From Cyanobium sp. AMD-g (GTDB lineage Bacteria > Cyanobacteriota > Cyanobacteriia > PCC-6307 > Cyanobiaceae): a stretch of 64,000 nucleotides of DNA. Shown here piece after piece: positions 741 through 11,570 of this stretch. The notes beneath the pieces are model-generated. The model made no database searches, was not told the origin of the DNA, and was given only the letters and a program-made list of their open reading frames with translations. The stretch is from the NCBI RefSeq assembly GCF_024346395.1, contig NZ_JAGQCW010000001.1:434001-498000 (forward strand), given 5' to 3'. A program made the position numbers and the translations under genes. The number at the start of each line of letters is the position of its first letter. Within the stretch, counting starts at the first letter, position 1.

Positions 741-1784
741 ATGTCGAAACTTCCATTATGGCTTCTCGGACTTACTTGCTTTTTTGGCACTGCAGGATCG
801 GCATGGGCATTACCGATCTCACCAGGGGATCGGGTCAAGTTGACAATCCCGGAAGGGGAAGAATTCAGTGGAATCTTTGAAATCAATCTGAACGGGGAGC
901 TTGAACTTCCCTTTTCCAAGGGGATCTACGCTGTGGGTCTTGAGCCGGAGCAGCTTCAGAAGCGTGTTTATCAAGCCCTGGTACAACAAGGCTTTTTTCA
1001 GCCATCTTTTCTCAGGGTCAGTCTGAGTGTCATCCAATGGGCACCTGTCCCGGTCTTTGTCATTGGATCTGCTTTTCAGCCTGGACGGCTATTGATCAAC
1101 GAGTTAAGTGACGTCGAACAGACCCAGACTCCTGTTCAACTTTCAGGGCAAGCCCCGCTCAATCGTATGCTCACAACGGCACTCCGACGTGCGGGAGGCA
1201 TTACTCCCACTGCCGATGTGGCTGCGATACAGGTGAAACGAGGTTCAAAAAGGCAAGTGATTGACATGTCCGGAGCTTTCACGGGGGAACCTTTTAACGA
1301 CATCCCACTCATTGCCGGTGATCAAGTCATTGTTCCGGACACTGGTACCGTCAATCCACTCATCGTTCGCCCTTCTCAGATCACGCCGGCTGAAGTTGAG
1401 ATTAACATCTCAAATCTGACCGTTCCAGCGGCTGGAAATTCTGTTGCTGGCATTGGCTCTCAAGCCAGGAATTTTCCCTATGGATCTCGTCTCTCCCAGG
1501 CGGTGATCTCGGCCAACTGTGCTGGTGGAACCATGGTCACCAATGCGCGACGCCGAGCCATCCTGGTGAGGACTGAAAGGATCTCGGGCAAGACGACAGT
1601 CTACGAAAGAGGGGTAGAAGATCTGCTTCGCACGTCTACAGACAGCAGCAACAATCCCTATCTCATGGCAGACGATGGTGTTGCTTGTTATGACTCCAAG
1701 GTGACCAACTTCCAGGCTGTCCTTGGCATTCTGACTCAGTTTCTGAATCCAGCTGTTTTGATTTATGATCGCAGTATTCCCTAG
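741..1784 (+). CDS. Wza-like polysaccharide export protein
   Basis: Predicted outer-membrane polysaccharide export protein of 347 residues. Residues 1-23 form a signal peptide ending SAWA, followed by a Poly_export domain beginning LPISPGDRVKL and an SLBB-type beta-grasp segment containing LRRAGGI and IAGDQVIVPDTG. Proteins of this family form the channel through which Wzy-made polymer leaves the cell. Unlike E. coli Wza there is no lipobox cysteine after the signal peptide. It is the first gene of a same-strand cluster, 6 bases ahead of the copolymerase gene. The assignment to export is well supported; the polymer is unknown. Confidence 0.85.
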   Translation: MSKLPLWLLGLTCFFGTAGSAWALPISPGDRVKLTIPEGEEFSGIFEINLNGELELPFSKGIYAVGLEPEQLQKRVYQALVQQGFFQPSFLRVSLSVIQWAPVPVFVIGSAFQPGRLLINELSDVEQTQTPVQLSGQAPLNRMLTTALRRAGGITPTADVAAIQVKRGSKRQVIDMSGAFTGEPFNDIPLIAGDQVIVPDTGTVNPLIVRPSQITPAEVEINISNLTVPAAGNSVAGIGSQARNFPYGSRLSQAVISANCAGGTMVTNARRRAILVRTERISGKTTVYERGVEDLLRTSTDSSNNPYLMADDGVACYDSKVTNFQAVLGILTQFLNPAVLIYDRSIP

Positions 1785-1790
1785 AACCGA

Positions 1791-3302
1791 GTGAAAGACT
1801 CTCCACAGATCATCAGAAGACTCAGGCCTAAGGTGCAGGCTGTGCAAGAACCCTTGGGCAAGGCAACGCGCCTGTTTGCTGAACAGTTCCGAAATATTCC
1901 TGGGTTGAAAGTACCCGATCCAAAGGGATGGTGGAAAAGGCTGAGTCGAACCGACAAGCTACGCTGGAGTCGATATCTTTTCGTATCCACTTGTACGAAT
2001 GGTTTGATCTGGGCCACCAGCATTCTGTATCTTGCACTTGCGAAGCCTGTCTATACCAGCTCCTGGGCTTTGGTTCTACCTGGAAGCGCCAACGCGGTAA
2101 ATTTAAGCCTGCCTGAGATTGGTCAAGCCACGGCATCAAACGAATCTCTAGGCTTAGCCACCTTTGATCCTCGGGCTAACTATGAATACATCTTCGTTAG
2201 CGAGCAGGTTTTGGCAAGGGCTGCCAAGATTGCCAATATTCCCAAGGCGGATTTCGCCAAGCCCCGCATCAAGAACATTGATAACACAACGTTGATGCAG
2301 ATTGATACCACCGGTCCATCTCCTGTCGATGCACGCAAGCGTGCCTATGCATTGCATGACGCCATGGTGGAGCGTCTCAATGAGCTGCGTGTCAGCGAGA
2401 TCGAGCAGCGGCAGGGTCCAGCACAGGAGATTCTGCTGGAAACCCAGCAGAAGCTTGAGACTGCTCAAAAGCAAGTGTCTGCATACAAGCGTCAGTCTGG
2501 CCTCACTTCTATCGAGCAGGTTGAGATCCTGTCGGCTAATATTGAACAACTACGCAAACAAAGAGCCGAACTTGCTGCTCAGCAATCGCAGGCTGAGAGT
2601 CGATTGCAGAAGTTGAGTCGTAGCCTGGGGCTGTCTCCTTCAGAGGCCACAGATGCGTTCAAGTTGCAGGTTGATCAGATCTTCCAGCAGAATATCAAAG
2701 ACTACAGCGAGGCCACGTCCATACTCAAGGTCCAGCTGTCTAAGTTTGGTCGCAATAATCCTCGTATTCTCAAAGAGATCAAGCGGCAAGAGGCTGCCAG
2801 ACAGGCCATGAACCAGCGTGCACAAGAGTTGCTCGGTCAAGCTCCATCGGCCCAGACTCTCACAAGACTTGCGTTGACGGGTGCCAGTTCGGGCCGCGAT
2901 TCACTCTTCCAGAACTTGGTGAACTACCAGTCAGATGCTTCAGGTGCAGCCTCACAGGTTCGCAAGCTTGATCAACAGATCAGCTCCTTGGAGGGCCGCC
3001 TCAGGTTGATGTCCCAGAGGCAGTCTTCGTTGGAGAACCTTAAGCGGAATGAACAGATAGCAGAAGCGGTCTTTGCATCCACATTGGCCAAACTGGATCT
3101 TGGTCAGGCGAACATCTTTGCAGCATTCCCGCTGATTCAGATCGCTGTGGAGCCATCCTTGCCTGAAAAAGCGACGTCACCAAAGCGAACGCTGGTGCTT
3201 GCTGGCTCAGCCTTTGGTTCCATCCTGACGACTGTAGGTCTTTGGATCCTATGGATCCGCAAGCCTTGGATCAAACGGGTCGCCAATTGGATTTCTACAT
3301 AA
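1791..3302 (+). CDS. Wzz/Wzc-like polysaccharide copolymerase without kinase domain
   Basis: Chain-length-determinant type inner-membrane protein of 503 residues, starting at GTG. It has a cytoplasmic N-terminal tail, TM1 at about 62-84, a long periplasmic part with coiled-coil heptads (about 205-345, rich in Gln, Glu, Leu), and TM2 at about 467-488 after PEKATSPKR, the proline-rich motif usual before TM2. The protein ends about 15 residues after TM2, so the tyrosine-kinase domain of Wzc is absent. Its expected role is control of polymer length and coupling of Wzy to the export protein. The gene lies between export and polymerase genes, as in other Wzx/Wzy clusters. Confidence 0.85.
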   Translation: MKDSPQIIRRLRPKVQAVQEPLGKATRLFAEQFRNIPGLKVPDPKGWWKRLSRTDKLRWSRYLFVSTCTNGLIWATSILYLALAKPVYTSSWALVLPGSANAVNLSLPEIGQATASNESLGLATFDPRANYEYIFVSEQVLARAAKIANIPKADFAKPRIKNIDNTTLMQIDTTGPSPVDARKRAYALHDAMVERLNELRVSEIEQRQGPAQEILLETQQKLETAQKQVSAYKRQSGLTSIEQVEILSANIEQLRKQRAELAAQQSQAESRLQKLSRSLGLSPSEATDAFKLQVDQIFQQNIKDYSEATSILKVQLSKFGRNNPRILKEIKRQEAARQAMNQRAQELLGQAPSAQTLTRLALTGASSGRDSLFQNLVNYQSDASGAASQVRKLDQQISSLEGRLRLMSQRQSSLENLKRNEQIAEAVFASTLAKLDLGQANIFAAFPLIQIAVEPSLPEKATSPKRTLVLAGSAFGSILTTVGLWILWIRKPWIKRVANWIST

Positions 3303-3315
3303 CAAGGGGTCTTCA

Positions 3316-4647
3316 TTGGGACTTAAAACGATTCTTTCAAGGGCATTCCAGTCTGAAGATGATCTTCAGCCGAGAAATTGGCCAGAACGCTTGGTCTGGT
3401 GGTCCATTGTTTGTACGTATCCTATCTGGCTAGTCGGTGGGCTCTATGTTGTGGGATCTGTTCTTTGCTGGCTACTCCTGGTTTGCCTGCTGATCAAGAT
3501 CCTGGCCCGAATGGATCACCCAGAAGAGAATGAAGAAATTTCCATATCACCCGTGATCTGGCTTTGGATCGTCGGCATGATCATCATGGAAGTTGCCTTG
3601 ATTGCAGGTCATGTGAACTTCAACCTCGGGACTGGAGCGATCATCAAGTCCACGATTGGTTGGGCCAAAGGGTGGGCTGCCCTGGCGCTCTATCCGTTAG
3701 CTGGAGCTCTGCCGATTCGGAGCAGCATCCCTACACGTGCCATTTGCATTGTGGGCTTTCATACGCTCCTCATCATGCCGCTGCTTCTGCTAACCCCACA
3801 TCTGGGCCTGCCAGAGGTGCTTTATGTCTCGCCATTGAGAGCCGTCGGTGGTCCAGGAAATGAATTCTTTGATGTTCCACTCTACGAGATTGACGGCAGC
3901 ACTGGTGACCTTCGCTGGCGGCTCTTCTCTCCATGGGGGCCAGCACTTGGTTTTGTTGGCAATATCAACTTCATGATATGTCTGCTGGAAAAGAATCGGA
4001 AATGGAAGCTTCTGGGCATCATTGGCTCGATCGTCATGTGCTTCGTCTGTAAGTCGCGTCTTGCCCAGTTGTGCATCATCTTGATTCCAGCCGTTACGGC
4101 GATCGTAGCAAGGCTGCGTCAACCATTCATGCTGATTTCTCTTGGCATTGTCTCCTATCTTGGTGGCATCTTTGCCACGTCCATTCTCACCGCCATCAGC
4201 GACTACTGGGAAGGATTTAAAGGTGCCCGTGCTGGCTCTACGCGTGTTCGCTTTGCATTAAAGCGAATCGCCTTCCATCGCTGGGAGACAGAGGCTCCGA
4301 TCTGGGGGCACGGTGTTGTCGAGGGCGGCCCCCATCTGGTTGAGTACATGGCCATTGGCTCCCATCACACCTGGGCAGGAGTGCTTTTTGTGAAGGGTAT
4401 TGTTGGCTTCGTCGCTCTGGCTGTTCCCATGTTGGTTACAGCGCTTGATCTATTGCGCCGTGCTGCCAATCCCCGCTATCAACTTGGATCAGCCGGGCTG
4501 GGGATCATCATTCTTCTATTCATGTATACGTTTGGCGAGAACCTCGAGATTCTGGTCTATCTCTTCTGGCCTGGAATGGTGATCATGGGAATGGCTCTAC
4601 AGGAGAAGAAAGGGTCCCTCCAGCCTGAAGTTCAGCCCCTATCGTGA
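3316..4647 (+). CDS. Wzy/O-antigen-ligase-like membrane protein
   Basis: Integral membrane protein of 443 residues with about ten hydrophobic segments and a larger extracytoplasmic loop in the second half (around GHGVVEGGPH and GSHHTWAG). The histidine-containing loop followed by TM segments is typical of O-antigen ligase/polymerase-type proteins (WaaL/Wzy). In this place it most likely polymerises lipid-linked repeat units. The TTG start at 3316 is chosen because AAGGGG lies about 7 bases upstream; no ATG offers a better site. It follows the copolymerase gene by 13 bases. Polymerase and ligase cannot be told apart from sequence. Confidence 0.7.
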   Translation: MGLKTILSRAFQSEDDLQPRNWPERLVWWSIVCTYPIWLVGGLYVVGSVLCWLLLVCLLIKILARMDHPEENEEISISPVIWLWIVGMIIMEVALIAGHVNFNLGTGAIIKSTIGWAKGWAALALYPLAGALPIRSSIPTRAICIVGFHTLLIMPLLLLTPHLGLPEVLYVSPLRAVGGPGNEFFDVPLYEIDGSTGDLRWRLFSPWGPALGFVGNINFMICLLEKNRKWKLLGIIGSIVMCFVCKSRLAQLCIILIPAVTAIVARLRQPFMLISLGIVSYLGGIFATSILTAISDYWEGFKGARAGSTRVRFALKRIAFHRWETEAPIWGHGVVEGGPHLVEYMAIGSHHTWAGVLFVKGIVGFVALAVPMLVTALDLLRRAANPRYQLGSAGLGIIILLFMYTFGENLEILVYLFWPGMVIMGMALQEKKGSLQPEVQPLS

Positions 4648-4749
4648 ATCACCCCGTCAGCCAGCAAGTAGCAGCCTTGATGCCATGATGGGCGATCCAG
4701 AGGCAGGAGGCTGTCCAATGACAGCTCGGACGCGTGGGGTAAGCCCTTG

Positions 4750-6030
4750 ATGCGCCTGCTCAGCAGCCTGAAACGCTTCATCCCGAAGGATCGATTCATC
4801 CGCAACATCGGTTGGATGGGCGTGGGGGAGGTGGGGATTCGCGTCTCGAGGCTCCTGGCCACTGTTCTGCTGGCCAGGCTGCTGAGCCCCAGGGACTATG
4901 GCCTGGCCGCCATCGTGTTGACATCCGGTGAGCTTGTCAAGGTCTTCACACGTAACGGCATTGGCGACAAGATCGTCCAGGCCGATGAGGCTGATGTCCA
5001 GGAGATCTGCCAGACGGCATGGAGCCTGAACTGGATGATCGGCTTCAGCCTCTTTCTCGTGCAGATCATGGGTTCGTTTATCTTTGCCAGCATTTATAAA
5101 GACAACGCGCTGATCCTGCCGATCATCGTGGTGAGTTTCAGCTATCTGATCTACCCACTCTCCATGGTCCAGACGGCCCTGGTGCGCAGGCAGAACCGGC
5201 TCAAGTTTTACAGCTTGACCAACCTCACAGCCGTTGTCACCGACAACCTGCTGACCGGGATCTTTGCACTGATGGGCATGGGCATGTGGGCGATTGTACT
5301 GCCCAAGCTGTTGGTGGCTCCCGTCTGGGTCGCCATGATGCTGCGCTTCGAGCCCTGGCGGCCCGTCATGACATTAACGCTCAAGCGCTGGAAATCCGTG
5401 CTGGGGTTCGGAAGTCGCATCCTGGGTGTGGAGATGCTCAACACCTTCCGAGAGAATGTGGACTATCTGCTGATCGGTCGGTTCATCGGTGTTAAAGCGC
5501 TTGGGGTGTACTTCTTCGCCTTCAACGCGGGCTTGGGTCTGAGTCTGAGTGTGATCAATGCCCTGTCCGTCTCCATCTACTCCGACTTCTGTGACGTCCG
5601 TGGCCAACCCGCCGAACTGAAAAGACGCTTCAGCAAGAATCTGCTCACCATCACCAAGGTGATCGTGCCCGTTGTGGCGGTGCAATGCAGTCTGGCCCCC
5701 CTCTATGTACCGATCGTTTTTGGTCAGAAGTGGGTGACGGAGGGTGCCGTGCCGATCCTGATGCTGATCTGCCTGTCGGCCTTGTCACGCCCCTTTGCCA
5801 ACGCCTCCTCGATGCTGTTCCGAGCCGTGGGCTTGCCCCAGGTGGATCTGCTTTGGAACCTGGCCTTCACCGTGGCCCTCACCGTGGCCATCCTGATAGG
5901 CACGACCTGGGGATCCCTGGGCGTGGCCGTGGCCGTGGCAGCGGCCCATCTCCTGTTGCAGCCGATCTACCTGATGATGGGGCAGCGGCTGCTACAAAGG
6001 ATTCAGATCACCCAACCGGCAAGCCTGTGA
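4750..6030 (+). CDS. Wzx-type lipid-linked oligosaccharide flippase
   Basis: MOP-superfamily flippase of 426 residues with 11-12 predicted membrane segments. Diagnostic stretches are GVGEVGIRVSRLLATVLLAR, RLLSPRDYGLAAI near the N-terminus and GRFIGVKALGVYFFAF mid-protein, as in polysaccharide biosynthesis proteins of the WzxC type. It should move undecaprenyl-pyrophosphate-linked repeat units across the inner membrane for polymerisation by the neighbouring Wzy-like protein. The ATG at 4750 is preferred over the TTG directly before it; GGGGT lies upstream. G+C rises here compared with the preceding three genes. Confidence 0.85.
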   Translation: MRLLSSLKRFIPKDRFIRNIGWMGVGEVGIRVSRLLATVLLARLLSPRDYGLAAIVLTSGELVKVFTRNGIGDKIVQADEADVQEICQTAWSLNWMIGFSLFLVQIMGSFIFASIYKDNALILPIIVVSFSYLIYPLSMVQTALVRRQNRLKFYSLTNLTAVVTDNLLTGIFALMGMGMWAIVLPKLLVAPVWVAMMLRFEPWRPVMTLTLKRWKSVLGFGSRILGVEMLNTFRENVDYLLIGRFIGVKALGVYFFAFNAGLGLSLSVINALSVSIYSDFCDVRGQPAELKRRFSKNLLTITKVIVPVVAVQCSLAPLYVPIVFGQKWVTEGAVPILMLICLSALSRPFANASSMLFRAVGLPQVDLLWNLAFTVALTVAILIGTTWGSLGVAVAVAAAHLLLQPIYLMMGQRLLQRIQITQPASL

Positions 6031-6207
6031 GCCACGTTTGCAAGCCTGAGGCTTCAACATCGTGGCGCCATTGAGGGCGCGCTCAACGCGCGGTTATGGT
6101 GATTGAAGCATTCTTGCCTCGCTGCCACCGCCGCAGGCCTGGATCACGTTCGTGGTGCCATGGGTGCCATCAGAGCCAACCCTGACGTCCACCCGCCTGA
6201 TTGACTC

Positions 6208-7053
6208 GTGAAGATCTACGCCATCTGCCTGATCAAGAACGAGGGCGATGTCATTGCTGATTGTCTGGTTCATGCACTGACGTTCTGTGATCGCATCTTT
6301 GTTCTTGACAATGGCAGTACGGATGGCACCTGGGAAACCGTGAATGCCCTGGCGCTGCAGTATCCAGCAATTGTGATTGAAGAGCAGCTACTGGTGCCCT
6401 TTCGCGATGGGATGCGCTCGGTCGTCTACAACAGGTACAACCACGAACTGGGTGAGCGGGATTGGTGGCTGCGGCTCGATGGTGATGAGTTCCTGGACGG
6501 GGATCCCAGGGAGGTGCTGGCCAAGGCCAACCGTGAAAGGGCCGACTTCGTGACGGCATGGAATCTTCAGTTCTACTACACGGATGCCGATTACAAGAAC
6601 TGGGCGGCCGAGAAGCTTGAAACCAACCGACCGATCACCGAACGGCGACGCTACTACTCAGCCAATTGGCGGGAGTACCGCTTCTTCCGCAACCAGCCCC
6701 ATCAACCCTGGAACGAAGCGGTGGCTCCGCAATGGCCCGATGGCCTCACCAAAGCCTGCTCGCAGCGCCTCTACAACCGCCACTACCCCTACCGCACGCC
6801 TGACCAGATCAAAGAGAAACTTCAGGCCCGTTTCGGCCATGAACAGTTTCGCCATATCAACTCGGTCGACTGGACATCGAAGCTGCTGCCTGCGCGCCAG
6901 CTGAACCACTTCCAGGAGGGTCAGCCGCCCACGATCAACCAGTTCGATTACTACGCCAAACGCCTGCGGATGATCCGCATCACCTTGATGGGGCGGTTCA
7001 AGGCCTGCCTGCGTCGACGTCTGGGTGGCCACCGTTCCAGCCATACCTCGTAG
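6208..7053 (+). CDS. Family 2 glycosyltransferase (short)
   Basis: GT-A fold glycosyltransferase of 281 residues beginning MKIYAICLIKNEGD from a GTG codon. The nucleotide-binding part shows DNGSTDGTW and the metal-binding acidic motif RLDGDEF (around residues 90-96). It resembles the IcaA/WcaA-like family with a C-terminal helical part and HYPYR, seen in proteins that add a sugar to a lipid-linked acceptor. There is no membrane segment, so it is probably cytoplasmic at the membrane face. A 177-base gap separates it from the flippase gene; that gap contains only a weak 5-bp hairpin at 6077-6091. Confidence 0.8.
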   Translation: MKIYAICLIKNEGDVIADCLVHALTFCDRIFVLDNGSTDGTWETVNALALQYPAIVIEEQLLVPFRDGMRSVVYNRYNHELGERDWWLRLDGDEFLDGDPREVLAKANRERADFVTAWNLQFYYTDADYKNWAAEKLETNRPITERRRYYSANWREYRFFRNQPHQPWNEAVAPQWPDGLTKACSQRLYNRHYPYRTPDQIKEKLQARFGHEQFRHINSVDWTSKLLPARQLNHFQEGQPPTINQFDYYAKRLRMIRITLMGRFKACLRRRLGGHRSSHTS

Positions 7054-7061
7054 CCACCACG

Positions 7062-8075
7062 ATGGCGCCCATTGATGACCACGAGACTGCTGCACTTGTT
7101 CCAGAGTCAGCCGAGCTGGACGTACCGGCCATTTCCGTGGTGGTTCCGATCTACAACGCGGCGCCACACATCGCGCAGACCCTGCGCTCGGTGCAGAACC
7201 AGAGCCTGAGCAACTGGGAACTGATCGCCGTGGATGACGGTTCCAGCGACGACAGCCTCGCCATCGTGTCCGGCCTGTTCGGGGACGACCCTCGGGTGCA
7301 CCTGGTGAGCCAGCCCAACGCCGGGGTCTCCATGGCCCGCAATCGCGGCGTGGCCCTCAGCCATGCGCCCCTGATCGCCTTCCTTGATGCCGATGACCTC
7401 TGGCATCCCGACAAACTGGCACTGCATGTGGCTTACCACACCAACCATCCTGATGTCGGCGTGAGTTTCGCCCGCGTCGCGTTCCTGTCCCCTGAGGGGT
7501 CGCCCACGGGCCTGCTGGCGGCCCTGCCTCTCGAATCGCATCGGCCGGTGGATTTTCTCTGTGAGAACCCCACCAACACCACATCCAATTGGGTGCTGCG
7601 GCGGCAGGTGTTCGATTCGGTGGGCGGATTCGTCGCTGACATGAGCTATTCAGAAGATCTGGAATGGCTGCTGCGGGTGGCCTGCGATGGCCGCTGGCCG
7701 ATCGCCGGGCTACCGCAGGTGCTCACCTACTACCGCACCTCCGCCGGGGGGCTGTCTTCGAGCCTGCAGCGCATGGAACAGGGCTGGCTGCGGCTGATCA
7801 GCGAAGCCCGTGGCTATGCGCCCGAGCTGGTGGCGCGACACTTCGCCACCGCCCAGGCCATCCACCTGCGCTACCTGGCCCGGCGCTCCCTGCGCCTGGG
7901 AGGTGCCCCCAGCATCGGCACCGACTTCATGCTGCGCTCCCTGCGCTCGGATTGGCGGATCCTGCTGGGACAGCCGCGCCGTACCGTGCTGACAGCCCTG
8001 GCCGTTTTCGCGCGCCAGCTGCTGGCCCCCTTCGGACGCCTGGGTGGCCGTCATGACAAGGCACGGTCATGCTGA
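7062..8075 (+). CDS. Family 2 glycosyltransferase (paralog A)
   Basis: 337-residue GT2 enzyme. An N-terminal extension of about 25 residues is followed by ISVVVPIYNAAPHIAQTL, AVDDGSSDDS, NAGVSMARNRG and the acidic FLDADDLW motif. These are nucleotide-sugar and metal-binding elements of the GT-A fold. The C-terminal third (HLRYLARRSLRLG, DWRILLGQPRRT) is an extension shared with the next gene, so the two are tandem paralogs. It should transfer a sugar during assembly of the exopolysaccharide repeat unit. The donor and acceptor cannot be inferred. Confidence 0.85.
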   Translation: MAPIDDHETAALVPESAELDVPAISVVVPIYNAAPHIAQTLRSVQNQSLSNWELIAVDDGSSDDSLAIVSGLFGDDPRVHLVSQPNAGVSMARNRGVALSHAPLIAFLDADDLWHPDKLALHVAYHTNHPDVGVSFARVAFLSPEGSPTGLLAALPLESHRPVDFLCENPTNTTSNWVLRRQVFDSVGGFVADMSYSEDLEWLLRVACDGRWPIAGLPQVLTYYRTSAGGLSSSLQRMEQGWLRLISEARGYAPELVARHFATAQAIHLRYLARRSLRLGGAPSIGTDFMLRSLRSDWRILLGQPRRTVLTALAVFARQLLAPFGRLGGRHDKARSC

Positions 8076-8112
8076 CATTCGCCAACGCCCCTCTGCCTGT
8101 GAGTGCAATCCC

Positions 8113-9144
8113 ATGAGCCCATCTCCCCTGGTCTCGGTGGTGATGCCGCTGTACAACTCCGCCGCCACGGTGAGGGAAAGCCTGGAATCCGTTCTCAGCC
8201 AGACCTACCCCAACCTGGAGATCCTGGTGGTGAACGACGGCTCCACCGATGACGGGGTAGCGATCTGCCAGGGGTACGCGGACGCGCGCGTTCGCGTGGT
8301 GCATCAGCAGAACCGTGGCCTGGCCGGGGCCCGGAACACAGGCATCCGGCAGGCCAAAGGGGAGTTCCTGGGATTTCTGGACAGCGATGATCTGTGGCTG
8401 CCCACCAAGGTGGAGCGCCATGTGGCCCATCTGCAGGCGCGGCCGGAGGTGGGGGTCAGCTTTTCCCGCTCCGGATTCATCGATGAGAACTCCAGACCGA
8501 TCGGGATCTACCAGATGCCGAGGCTGCAGGACATCACCCCGCAGATCGTCTTCTGCCGCAATCCGATCGGCAATGGCTCGGCGGTGGTGATCCGACGGGA
8601 CGTCTTCACAGCCATTCGTTTTGAGGCGAATCTCTATGGCGACGTGGAAGACTTCTACTTTGACGACAGCTTCCGTCAGTCTGAAGATATCGAATGCTGG
8701 CTGCGGATTGCGCTCCAGACCCACTGGCGCATCGAAGGCCTCCCCGAGGCGCTGACGCTTTATCGCATCAGCGACGGCGGACTTTCGGCCAACCTGATGA
8801 AGCAGTACGCCTCCTGGGAGCGCGTTCTGCTCAAGACCGAAGCCACCCAGCCGGAGTTCGTCGCCCAGTGGGGCTCCAGGGCTCGCGCCTATCAGCTGCG
8901 CTACCTGGCCCGCCGCGCCACCCGCCAGCGGGACGGCGCCCTGGCCGTGCGTCTGCTGCACCAATCCCTGGCCACCGACTGGAGGGTGCTGCTGGAGGAA
9001 CCGCGACGCACCCTGATCACGCTGCTGGCGGCCTACCTGCTGCGGCTGTTGCCGGAGGCTCCCTATCGCTGGCTGGAGGGCCGGATGCTGCGCTCCACAG
9101 GAGCCAGTCAGCAGCGGCGCATGCGTGGGGAACTGGGCCGATGA
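8113..9144 (+). CDS. Family 2 glycosyltransferase (paralog B)
   Basis: 343-residue GT2 enzyme with LVSVVMPLYNSAATV, VNDGSTDDG, QNRGLAGARNTG and FLDSDDLW. The C-terminal part repeats the pattern of the upstream gene: GGLSANLMKQ, LRYLARRATR, DWRVLLEEPRRT. The ATG at 8113 puts the start right before the GT-A core; a GTG at 8044 inside the preceding gene would add 23 residues unlike the family. Its stop overlaps the next start by 4 bases (ATGA), so it is probably translationally coupled to the PssD-like gene. Confidence 0.85.
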   Translation: MSPSPLVSVVMPLYNSAATVRESLESVLSQTYPNLEILVVNDGSTDDGVAICQGYADARVRVVHQQNRGLAGARNTGIRQAKGEFLGFLDSDDLWLPTKVERHVAHLQARPEVGVSFSRSGFIDENSRPIGIYQMPRLQDITPQIVFCRNPIGNGSAVVIRRDVFTAIRFEANLYGDVEDFYFDDSFRQSEDIECWLRIALQTHWRIEGLPEALTLYRISDGGLSANLMKQYASWERVLLKTEATQPEFVAQWGSRARAYQLRYLARRATRQRDGALAVRLLHQSLATDWRVLLEEPRRTLITLLAAYLLRLLPEAPYRWLEGRMLRSTGASQQRRMRGELGR

Positions 9145-9596
9145 AGGTCTTGCTGGTCTGCTCATCAGGGGGGCATTTCAAGGCGCTGCAGCAGCTGGCC
9201 GATTTCTGGCAGCGCCATCCCCATCTCTGGGTCACGTTTCGAACCGCCACCACGGAAACGGCCCTGGCCCAGGAGCAGGTGCTCTGGGCCCACAGCCCCA
9301 CGAACCGCAACCTGCCGAATCTGCTGCGCAACCTCTGGCTCGCCTTGCAGGTGATCCGCACCGAGCGGCCGGACGTGATCCTCTCGACCGGCGCAGGAGT
9401 TGCCGTTCCCTTTCTTGTGATCGGTAAACTGTTTGGGTGCAAGACCGTGTTCATCGAGTCCGTGACCCGCATTCAAACGCTCAGTCTTTCAGCAAGAATC
9501 GTCCATCCATTTCTTGATATTCTCTACGTTCACTGGCCCCAGCTGCAGCTTCGTTATCCCCGCGCCGAGCTTGTCCAAAGCAAGATCGGATCATGA
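9141..9596 (+). CDS. Alg14/PssD-like glycosyltransferase subunit
   Basis: 151-residue protein with LVCSSGGHFKALQQL at the N-terminus and ILSTGAGVAVPFLVIGKL in the middle, as in the Alg14/PssD/EpsE family. In known pairs this subunit anchors the catalytic partner to the membrane and binds the lipid-linked acceptor; the partner supplies the donor-sugar site. The partner (PssE/Alg13-like) is the next gene, overlapping by 4 bases. Together they should add the second sugar to the lipid-linked primer. The length is normal for the family. Confidence 0.85.
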   Translation: MKVLLVCSSGGHFKALQQLADFWQRHPHLWVTFRTATTETALAQEQVLWAHSPTNRNLPNLLRNLWLALQVIRTERPDVILSTGAGVAVPFLVIGKLFGCKTVFIESVTRIQTLSLSARIVHPFLDILYVHWPQLQLRYPRAELVQSKIGS

Positions 9597-10072
9597 TTCT
9601 CATCAGCGTCGGTACGGAGCAGTTCCCCTTCAACCGGCTGATGCAGTGGGTGGAGCTGTTGATCCAACAGGAACTGATCAATGAGGACATCGTTGTTCAG
9701 TATGGTACGTGTACCTTTCTCCCCAGTGGCACCACGGTCTATCGGTTGGTGAAGGAAGACACCTTTCGGTCGCTGATTCGCAAGGCACGGGTGGTGATTG
9801 CCCATTGCGGGGAGGGCACCGTACTGTTGCTGGATGAGATGCAACAGCCCTTCATTCTTGTGCCGCGCAGCGTTCGCTACCAGGAGCATGTTGACGACCA
9901 CCAGGTGGAACTCGCCCTGGCGCTGACGGAAATGGGTGTGCCGATTGCCTGGAGTCCTGGTGATCTTGTTCGCTTTCTTGAGGCCCCGTTCAAGACGTCG
10001 ATCAGTGATGTGACGGACAGTTCCGCCCAGTCCCTGTGTCGCAGTCTTCAGAGCCATTTTTCTCCGACATGA
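9593..10072 (+). CDS. Alg13/PssE-like glycosyltransferase subunit
   Basis: 159-residue protein starting MILISVGTEQFPFNRLM, with the donor-binding HCGEGTVLLLDE motif (around residues 67-78) and VPRSVRYQEHVDDHQ. This is the C-terminal half of a GT-B enzyme, as in Alg13 and PssE. The usual family motif after VGT is often followed by HDFPFDRL; here it is EQFPFNRL. It overlaps both neighbours by 4 bases, consistent with equal expression of the PssD/PssE pair and the following transferase. Confidence 0.85.
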   Translation: MILISVGTEQFPFNRLMQWVELLIQQELINEDIVVQYGTCTFLPSGTTVYRLVKEDTFRSLIRKARVVIAHCGEGTVLLLDEMQQPFILVPRSVRYQEHVDDHQVELALALTEMGVPIAWSPGDLVRFLEAPFKTSISDVTDSSAQSLCRSLQSHFSPT

Positions 10073-11073
10073 TGGCGCGTCAGTCCCCCTCCCACCCTGC
10101 TTTTGTCAGGACCATCCGGAACGGCATCCTGTTTCTCCAGCTGCCATCACGGCTCACCGTCAGCGAAGCGGTGGCTTTCCGCGCCGGATTCGCCGATTGG
10201 CTGGCTGAGGTGGATGGTCTGCGGCAGGTGGTTCTGGATTTCGGCCGCACCGCCGTCATCGACAGCAGCGGCATCGGTGCCCTGGTGGGCGCCATCAAGA
10301 CCGCCAAGGAGCAGGACGTTCCCCTCTGCGCCTGGAGCCTGCACCGGCAGGTGTTCCTGGCGCTGCAGATGACGGGGCTGGAGAAGGTGTTGCCGGTGGC
10401 GGCCCATTCCGAGGGCCTGCTCCCCCAGCTCTCGCACGTCGAAGACCAACGCCCCCCCCTGACCCACCCATCGGTGCGATCCGGACTCAAGCGCTTCATG
10501 GACATCTGTGGTGCGCTGATCGGACTTGGCGTCACGGCGCTGCTGTTCCTGCCGATGGCGTTGGTCATCCGTCTGGACAGCCCGGGGCCGATCCTGTTCA
10601 GCCAGGTGCGCTGCGGCTGGATGGGCCGCCATTTCCGCATCTGGAAGTTCCGCTCGATGGTCAGCAATGCCGAGGTGCTCAAAGGCACGGTGGCGAACCA
10701 GGCCCAGGGGGCGTTCTTCAAAAACGACAACGACCCCAGGATCACCAAAGTGGGGCGCATCCTGCGCAAGACCAGCCTCGATGAGCTGCCCCAGTTCTGG
10801 AACGTGCTGATCGGTGACATGAGCCTGATCGGAACCCGCCCAGCCACACCCGATGAGGTGCTTCGTTATGCCATTCCGAGCTGGCAGCGCTTTGATGTGC
10901 GCCCCGGGTTGAGCGGCGAATGGCAGGTCAGTGGCAGGTCATCGATCCGTGATTTTGAAGATGTGATCAGGCTCGACCTCAGATACCAGCAGAATTGGAG
11001 TCTGGCCTATGATCTAAAATTAGTTGTCAAAACATTCCTTGTGCTTCTGAGCAAGGATTCGGGGGCGGCATGA
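10069..11073 (+). CDS. STAS domain fused to initiating sugar-phosphate transferase
   Basis: 334-residue fusion. Residues 12-120 are a STAS (anti-anti-sigma) domain with the phosphoacceptor signature AVIDSSGIGAL, Ser66/Ser67. Residues 138-334 are a bacterial sugar transferase (WbaP/PglC type): KRFMD, a membrane hairpin at about 146-168, SPGPILFSQVR, KFRSM, and the catalytic Asp-Glu of SLDELPQFWN, then RPGLSGEWQVSGR. This class moves a sugar phosphate onto undecaprenyl phosphate to begin repeat-unit synthesis. The ATG at 10069 overlaps the previous stop; a GTG at 10036 is less likely. The next gene encodes an RsbW-like ATPase, the usual partner of STAS domains, so phosphorylation-controlled initiation is inferred. 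Confidence 0.88.
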   Translation: MMARQSPSHPAFVRTIRNGILFLQLPSRLTVSEAVAFRAGFADWLAEVDGLRQVVLDFGRTAVIDSSGIGALVGAIKTAKEQDVPLCAWSLHRQVFLALQMTGLEKVLPVAAHSEGLLPQLSHVEDQRPPLTHPSVRSGLKRFMDICGALIGLGVTALLFLPMALVIRLDSPGPILFSQVRCGWMGRHFRIWKFRSMVSNAEVLKGTVANQAQGAFFKNDNDPRITKVGRILRKTSLDELPQFWNVLIGDMSLIGTRPATPDEVLRYAIPSWQRFDVRPGLSGEWQVSGRSSIRDFEDVIRLDLRYQQNWSLAYDLKLVVKTFLVLLSKDSGAA

Positions 11074-11570
11074 ACCCGAACTTGTCAGCCGATGTACGGC
11101 AACCCAACAGCCAACTGGCCGTCGGCAGCGATCTCGGTGAACTGGACACCGTGTTGTCTTGGTTTGAACGACAACAGCACCCTGACGTTCCTTCGGATCT
11201 ATGGATGCAGGCTCAACTGGCGCTGGTGGAAGGTTTCACCAATGCCGTTCGTCATGCCCATGCCCACCTGGTTGCTCCGCCCCAGGTGCACCTTTCGCTA
11301 CAGCGATCCAGCGAGGCCTTCTCGATTCAGATCATTGACCATGGGGAACCCTTCGACTTCCCAGCGGCCCTGGCCAGAGTGGAAGCGGAGATCGCAGCCA
11401 GTGGTCAAGATCCCCTGGCCCGGGAGGCCCATTGGGGACTGGTGATGTTTCTGAAGCTTCAGAACCAGTATGGCTGGACCATCAACCATTGCAGACGCGA
11501 TGACGGGACAAACAGCCTATCCCTGAGCCACCCCCTCAGGGCCGATGAATCGGTTGTCGGATCATACTGA
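11070..11570 (+). CDS. RsbW-like anti-sigma/serine kinase ATPase
   Basis: 166-residue GHKL (HATPase_c_2) domain protein. The N-box is LVEGFTNAVRHAH (Glu54, Asn58, His62), the G1 box is IIDHGEPFD (Asp90) and a short G2-like HWGL lies at 121-124. RsbW/SpoIIAB relatives bind or phosphorylate STAS-domain proteins. Its start overlaps the STAS-transferase stop by 4 bases, so the two are likely made together. I see no sigma factor or PP2C phosphatase in the window. Whether it acts as a kinase, as a sequestering partner, or on a distant sigma factor is open. Confidence 0.82.
   Translation: MNPNLSADVRQPNSQLAVGSDLGELDTVLSWFERQQHPDVPSDLWMQAQLALVEGFTNAVRHAHAHLVAPPQVHLSLQRSSEAFSIQIIDHGEPFDFPAALARVEAEIAASGQDPLAREAHWGLVMFLKLQNQYGWTINHCRRDDGTNSLSLSHPLRADESVVGSY

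Follow-up and report, generated by a model that had tools for sequence, protein, structure and literature searches.

Partner switching is best known for freeing sigma factors. In Pseudomonas, the output of the SiaA/SiaB/SiaC-SiaD switch targets biofilm formation and an enzyme, which is a separate diguanylate cyclase. Here, we describe a locus in a 64,000-nucleotide stretch of the Cyanobium sp. AMD-g genome (contig NZ_JAGQCW010000001.1, positions 434,001 to 498,000, referred to as the window), where a gene encoding a STAS-phosphoglycosyl transferase (PGT) fusion is directly followed by a gene encoding an RsbW-like ATPase. Like the Bacillus RsbV/RsbW/RsbU and SpoIIAA/SpoIIAB/SpoIIE systems, the locus combines a STAS acceptor loop, a GHKL kinase fold, and a SpoIIE-type phosphatase; unlike those systems, whose output is a sigma factor, it has no sigma factor gene in the contiguous form of its cassette, and its STAS domain is part of an enzyme. 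It also differs from the SiaD arrangement in that the enzyme to be switched would be the transferase itself. We consider it probable that these genes form a partner switch that acts on the enzyme initiating polysaccharide synthesis rather than on a sigma factor.

A related circuit has been described in Vibrio fischeri, in which SypE both phosphorylates and dephosphorylates the STAS protein SypA at S56. Unphosphorylated SypA is the active form, so that SypE activates SypA when it works as a phosphatase. The Syp polysaccharide is also under positive regulation by HahK, which feeds this circuit and is itself inhibited by HnoX; according to these reports, SypA works below the level of transcription on an unknown target (PMC4517449, PMC10120452, PMC12369376). 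The Vibrio system shares with the Cyanobium locus an H-NOX protein and a histidine kinase as input, a response-regulator phosphatase, and a serine kinase, and by analogy, judging from the genes, the phosphoserine output on a STAS domain and the control of polysaccharide below transcription may be shared as well. The two arrangements differ in that the Vibrio STAS protein is a separate polypeptide of 105 amino acids whose target is unknown, whereas here the STAS domain is fused to the initiating enzyme; in that SypE unites kinase and phosphatase (plus a receiver) in one protein, whereas here these are separate genes; and in that the Vibrio chain also controls transcription.

Two cyanobacterial precedents are also relevant. 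Nostoc punctiforme HmpU/HmpV/HmpW is a partner switch with a STAS protein as its output, and the effector of HmpV is undefined in the excerpted text (PMC6495340); the present locus is likewise a cyanobacterial candidate with STAS output, but HmpV is a separate STAS protein, whereas here the domain is attached to the transferase. The fusion architecture itself is in print for Anabaena PCC 7120 all4160 (PMC8256260), which is required for making the polysaccharide of the heterocyst envelope (Wang et al. 2007, as cited in PMC4390870) and has the same architecture as the window protein. The excerpts of PMC8256260 and PMC4390870 state no partner-switching role for all4160, which probably belongs to a clade of fusions without a downstream RsbW-like gene (see below). 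Neither the pairing with RsbW, nor the conservation of the serine and linker, nor the connection to PP2C and H-NOX genes turned up in the open-licence literature searched.

A sequence-only reading of the window had described a STAS domain with an IDSSG loop (S66/S67) fused to a WbaP/PglC-type transferase, followed with a 4-base overlap by a gene for an RsbW-like ATPase with intact N and G1 boxes. The open reading frame (ORF), Pfam matches, and fold matches bear out the fusion (Table 1), the coordinates (an ATGA overlap at 11070-11073) and a HATPase_c_2 match confirm the neighbor, and the residues E54, N58, D90, and G92 are all present in the latter. The STAS part of the predicted fusion structure superimposes on SpoIIAA (1tid_D) with a root mean square deviation of 1.9 over 102 columns, and TM1442 and RsbV are further matches; S66, at the position that we take to be the acceptor serine in SpoIIAA and RsbV, is the first residue of helix 66-81 in this model. 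The PGT part matches PglC (8e37_A, E value of 2e-10) and carries D238-E239 (10780-10785), presumably the catalytic dyad, which is invariant across 49 aligned rows. It is a predicted sugar-1-phosphate transferase acting on polyprenyl phosphate and also matches the NCBIfam model EPS_sugtrans, albeit below that model's full-length cut-off. The fusion model scored a predicted local distance difference test (pLDDT) value of 79.4 and a predicted template modeling (pTM) score of 0.56, the latter being the reason that we did not use it for domain orientation; linker residues 114 to 129 had pLDDT values of <50. For the RsbW-like protein (pLDDT, 85.8; pTM, 0.80), SpoIIAB was the best fold match, with RsbW (within the first 18) and other anti-sigma kinases close and the SiaB-SiaC structure 6kko also among the matches. 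Profile searches agreed with the structure matches for both proteins, the RsbW-like one matching RsbW (PDB 6m36) at 3.5e-6.

The STAS serine is kept in every fusion aligned. A phylum-wide profile search of 386 genomes, which did not demand the DSSG motif, found at least 96 full-length fusions in at least 86 genomes plus one split copy (genome G005), these counts being lower bounds since only five first-look candidates were scored in most genomes. This search was the source of the conservation set: 93 copies (83 genomes) outside the genus of AMD-g, referred to as the wider set, which with 16 intact copies from the same family give 109 aligned rows. The other two family copies, one with an in-frame stop (G048) and the split one, were excluded from the fusion alignment and its row count, although their RsbW genes were retained, and a fragment in G103 (78% identical, amino acids 245 to 333) was not counted among the fusions. 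D65 and S66 are present in 109/109 rows, S67 in 108/109, and G68 in 107/109. The linker motif is also well kept, with T132 in 104/109 rows, H133 in 109/109, P134 in 98/109, S135 in 106/109, V136 in 93/109, and R137 in 55/109.

Retention of S66 is not automatic, because other STAS domains of the same genome lack the serine. Among its ten STAS domains, we inspected six (two loci, L002 and L007, and two domains without loci were left out). DSSG is present at L001, L003, and L006, the last being the window fusion, and absent from L004, L005, and L008; the acceptor serine is missing in the sulfate-permease-fused STAS domains (L004 and L005) and in a lone STAS protein at C1:760179. That lone protein belongs to a second STAS/RsbW/PP2C set outside the window (L027, C1:760179-762195), with ASIG in place of DSSG and a PP2C protein whose N-terminal region we read as cyclic-nucleotide-binding-like; the set would be a partner switch without an acceptor serine.

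The RsbW-like partner was compared over 55 rows (18 from the same family and 37 from wider loci). The N-box residues E54 and N58 are conserved in 55/55 rows, D90 in 53/55, and G92 in 54/55. The family alignment called for by the sequence-only reading thus leaves its central residues standing, with the qualification that the G2 region of the window clade is derived: it reads EAHWGL in the window protein versus EGGLGL in Bacillus subtilis RsbW (aligned with PDB 6m36). Over the 55 rows, G123 is present in 55/55 and is preceded by arginine at position 122 in 30/55. Since G2 differs between clades, kinase activity is plausible for the family but is not assured for the window protein.

The fusion is widespread in Cyanobacteria. 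Within the same family, it occurs in 18/201 genomes (AMD-g included), and each of these copies (18/18) is immediately followed by an RsbW-like gene, so the pairing is not a matter of chance. In the two disrupted copies, the fusion frame carries an in-frame stop (L047, in G048) or runs over two frames (L048, in G005), and the RsbW frame is open in both. The search for further fusions beside a HATPase_c_2 gene, which the sequence-only reading had proposed, extended the pairing beyond the family: a same-strand RsbW-like gene lies within 1.5 kb downstream in 35/93 wider copies, 26 of them with a gap of ≤120 bp. On a quick tree, used for clade membership only, the RsbW-adjacency label changes 6 times versus ~36 times in shuffles, and RsbW-adjacent fusions recur in each of its two main parts. 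In 33 of 36 genomes (G663 and others in which, for the most part, every fusion is unlinked), a search at an E value of 1e-8 located a member of this RsbW family somewhere in the genome.

A contig scan with a pattern that demanded DSSG, and was for that reason not used for serine conservation, supplied the loci for the distance test and the structure models. Among the best 80 of 344 relatives, it found fusions at 56/80 loci, three of them over two frames, and the fusion records were, by their titles, cyanobacterial except for two metagenome-assembled contigs (L159, Chloroflexaceae; L165, Thiohalomonas), which we suspect are mis-binned. Among the matches listed, the closest named one was from Cyanobium sp. 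N5-Cardenillas, at 91% over the STAS domain and linker. A scan of viral contigs with the fusion protein returned a single relative, in the PGT part only. Across 28 loci with both genes, pairwise RsbW distances correlated more strongly with those of the STAS domain (r = 0.871) than with those of the PGT domain (r = 0.774). The partial correlation between RsbW and STAS given PGT was 0.635, a value reached in 0/1,000 label shuffles, whereas that between RsbW and PGT given STAS was 0.068. Divergence of the RsbW-like protein therefore follows the fused STAS domain more than the PGT domain.

The genes for the other half of the proposed partner switch lie ~2 to 7 kb to the left of the window, at the opposite end of the same polysaccharide cluster: a lone STAS protein with DSSG, a receiver-PP2C phosphatase, a hybrid kinase, and an H-NOX protein (Table 1). 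The H-NOX protein matches Nostoc Alr2278, for which there are many PDB entries, with an E value of 3.4e-73, and its proximal histidine and YxSxR motif, both with established roles in H-NOX proteins, are kept in the alignment. Receiver and SpoIIE domains were found in four PP2C proteins scanned near RsbW or its cluster (G000, L130, L067, and L300), with all three PP2C motifs present in G000. A lone STAS gene and a PP2C gene occur within ~20 kb in 16/18 family genomes, the exceptions being G051, with none in the fetched stretches, and G054, with weak candidates only; H-NOX is at the locus in 10/18, and 6 others have the hybrid kinase without H-NOX. Within the genus, the fusion is found in 15/42 genomes and the receiver-PP2C in the same 15, on one contig 8 to 18 kb apart in 12 of them; two further genomes have the RsbW-like gene in addition to these 15. 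Since linked genes are inherited together, we treat this co-occurrence as supporting rather than independent evidence. Next to the lone STAS gene is a small ORF (L025:10569-10913; C1:426568-426915) that looks PAS-like by eye but has no Pfam match, and matches to it adjoin the cassette in many family relatives.

In several heterocystous cyanobacteria, the six genes are found together within ~10 kb. In Richelia (L129), Tolypothrix (L130), and Nostoc (L133), the fusion, RsbW, and lone STAS genes are followed on the opposite strand by PP2C, hybrid kinase, and H-NOX genes, all within ~8 kb. Among 20 Alr2278-type H-NOX loci, 7 had all six genes in the fetched stretch and one had only the kinase and PP2C. 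In G663, whose H-NOX protein is 96% identical to the Alr2278 query, PP2C and kinase genes adjoin it and the fusion and RsbW genes are ~13 kb away. HNOBA and Hpt domains were found in the kinase of 4/4 H-NOX loci scanned, and the HNOB domain was found in the H-NOX protein. That the same gene set is kept together although rearranged argues for a function. At four Oscillatoria and Laspinema loci (L161, L166, L168, and L174), a PP2C protein of 726 to 803 amino acids follows RsbW, with the lone STAS gene on the opposite strand; the L161 protein has PAS and SpoIIE domains, and these loci may couple the same switch to another sensor.

From what we observed (which genes are present, which residues they conserve, how they are linked, and how they co-occur and co-diverge), we infer the following chain of binding and phosphotransfer steps. 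The H-NOX heme sensor, or another sensor in other strains, would regulate the HNOBA hybrid histidine kinase (HisKA-HATPase-receiver-Hpt), its ligand presumably being nitric oxide. The kinase would phosphorylate the receiver-PP2C (SpoIIE-type) phosphatase, which would dephosphorylate the lone STAS protein as well as the STAS part of the fusion. The RsbW-like protein would bind dephosphorylated STAS and phosphorylate S66, and the lone STAS protein would compete with the fusion for it. With the phosphatase on, the lone STAS protein would capture the RsbW-like protein and leave the transferase dephosphorylated, free, and active; with the phosphatase off, the RsbW-like protein would phosphorylate or hold STAS-PGT, and initiation would stop. 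By analogy with SypA, the transferase would be active when dephosphorylated.

Several observations weigh against this proposal. Although direct switching of polymer initiation, as the sequence-only reading had suggested, gains comparative support from S66, gene adjacency, co-divergence, and the linked PP2C, lone STAS, and sensor genes, the 1.5 kb downstream of 58/93 wider fusions contain no RsbW-like gene. Forty-five of these fusions form one supported clade, all in family f7, which also includes the Richelia and Calothrix genomes; in this clade the gene is missing from that interval in 45/45 copies, and 3 of the 36 genomes mentioned above, all of one genus, lack an RsbW of this family altogether at the same threshold. 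A lone STAS gene and a PP2C gene are both within 8 kb at only 6/93 wider loci. At seven of the 20 H-NOX loci, the fetched stretch lacks PP2C, lone STAS, RsbW, and fusion genes alike, and four (L315, L316, L319, and L322) have the cassette through RsbW with no adjoining fusion, although each of those genomes has a full-length fusion elsewhere. In the genus, two members have an RsbW homolog (one a 60-amino-acid partial match) but no fusion, the receiver-PP2C frame is interrupted in 2/15 genomes (G005 and G688), and linked genes may co-occur simply because they are inherited as a block. The motif pattern found all three PP2C motifs at only some loci, STAS and RsbW evolve faster than PGT, which possibly inflates the distance test, and the relative orientation of the STAS and PGT domains is unsure in the fusion model at its pTM score.

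In the G2 region, H121-W122-G123 is invariant in 18/18 family members, and because this region is derived in the window clade, the kinase activity of the window protein is uncertain. One alternative is that the RsbW-like protein of this clade has little or no kinase activity left and inhibits or positions STAS-PGT by binding alone, with another kinase or none modifying S66. We regard this as rather unlikely, although the contrast between H-W-G throughout the family and arginine before the glycine in 30/55 rows speaks for it, given that S66 is invariant, that almost every row retains the N box and G1, and that the AMD-g genome has a linked PP2C carrying its motifs, a phosphatase requiring a phosphorylated substrate. 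A further possibility, raised in the sequence-only reading, is that STAS-PGT acts as a decoy for the RsbW-like protein, drawing it away from a sigma factor and thereby giving polysaccharide synthesis a feedback effect on transcription. Sigma factors are the classical binding partners of RsbW and SpoIIAB, and anti-sigma/sigma complexes (1l0o and 8jzt) are among the fold matches. This titration gained no positive support here and strikes us as improbable: the contiguous six-gene cassette of L130 has no sigma factor gene and no room for one (unlinked sigma factors were not examined), and RsbW-like distances track the fused STAS domain more than the PGT domain.

It is very unlikely, in our judgment, that the STAS domain has mainly a structural role, docking the PGT to membrane proteins or to the second-step transferase Alg13/Alg14, with RsbW being incidental. 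The Alg14, Alg13, and fusion genes do overlap by 4 bp each, and in L180 they form a single Alg13-Alg14-STAS-PGT protein, but such docking would leave the serine invariant in 109 copies, the adjacent RsbW gene, and the co-divergence unexplained. That the adjacency is fortuitous, a common gene arrangement with no regulatory meaning, could be argued from the clade of 45 fusions without a nearby RsbW-like gene; we give it almost no credence, since the pairing holds in 18/18 family copies and recurs in both main tree parts and since the fusion and the phosphatase occur in the same 15/42 genus genomes.

The occurrence of the fusion with kinase, phosphatase, and sensor genes names a concrete candidate for the target of SypA and HmpV, and the question becomes testable in non-pathogenic laboratory strains. 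Under the partner-switch proposal, cyanobacterial exopolysaccharide synthesis would have a checkpoint at the enzyme level, possibly controlled by a heme sensor. These observations suggest that slime production is controlled directly at its first enzyme. In its broadest form, we offer the idea only tentatively, as one that may well prove wrong: across Cyanobacteria, a gas-sensing H-NOX phosphorelay would be wired through a full partner switch into the enzyme that commits lipid carrier to exopolysaccharide, without a transcription step. On this reading, the fusion would serve as a Rosetta stone, pointing to the initiating phosphoglycosyl transferase as the target of stand-alone STAS outputs (SypA and perhaps also HmpV), and the structurally well-studied Nostoc Alr2278 H-NOX would gain a physiological output.

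Table 1. Coordinates of the fusion gene, its RsbW-like partner, and associated genes. Positions are those of the window, except for C1 positions, which lie outside it.
Feature	Position	Strand	Basis or remark
STAS-PGT fusion protein, 334 amino acids (STAS plus polyprenyl-phosphate sugar-1-phosphate transferase domain)	10069..11073	+	ORF (ATG at 10069, stop ending at 11073, 4-bp overlaps with neighbors on both sides), Pfam, fold matches
STAS domain, amino acids 15-113	10111..10407	+	Pfam PF01740, E 3.1e-12, above cut-off
Phosphoacceptor loop D65-S66-S67-G68 (in VIDSSG)	10261..10272	+	Alignment
Linker, amino acids 114-140	10408..10488	+	Model, alignment; T-H-P-S-V-R at amino acids 132-137 (10462-10479)
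PGT domain, amino acids 141-327, PglC/WbaP type	10489..11049	+	Pfam PF02397 Bac_transf, E 1.3e-62, above cut-off
RsbW/SpoIIAB-like GHKL ATPase, presumed STAS serine kinase, 166 amino acids	11070..11570	+	Pfam HATPase_c_2, E 9.4e-13, above cut-off
N box, E54...N58	11229..11243	+	Conserved in RsbW-like rows
G1 box, D90-x-G92	11337..11345	+	Conserved in RsbW-like rows
Derived G2 region, E119-A-H-W-G-L124	11424..11441	+	Family comparison
Alg13-like glycosyltransferase subunit	9593..10072	+	Pfam Glyco_tran_28_C; overlaps fusion start by 4 bp
Alg14-like subunit	9141..9596	+	Pfam Alg14, E 5.8e-18; overlaps Alg13-like gene by 4 bp
Glycosyltransferases	6208-9144	+	Pfam
Wzx-type flippase	4747-6030	+	Pfam
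Wzy-like	3316-4647	+	Our reading, no Pfam match
Wzc-like	1791-3302	+	Our reading, no Pfam match
Export protein	741-1784	+	Pfam
Lone STAS with DSSG	C1:427091-427468		Outside window
Receiver-PP2C phosphatase	C1:427491-428663		Outside window
Hybrid kinase (HNOBA, HisKA, HATPase, receiver, Hpt)	C1:428669-431188		Outside window
H-NOX	C1:431205-431804		Outside window

By Pfam, the block at 741-11570 of the window is a polysaccharide cluster that includes the fusion and RsbW-like genes. The overlaps of the Alg14- and Alg13-like genes upstream, the phosphatase and sensor half to the left of the window, and the unusual G2 region had not been part of the sequence-only reading. At L180:7002-9155, a domain scan found Alg13, Alg14, STAS, and PGT in a single protein of 718 amino acids, so that first- and second-step transferases are joined; fusion frames of 717 to 718 amino acids occur in two Pseudanabaena genomes and Phormidium tenue (L180, L182, and L183), with the domains scanned in L180.

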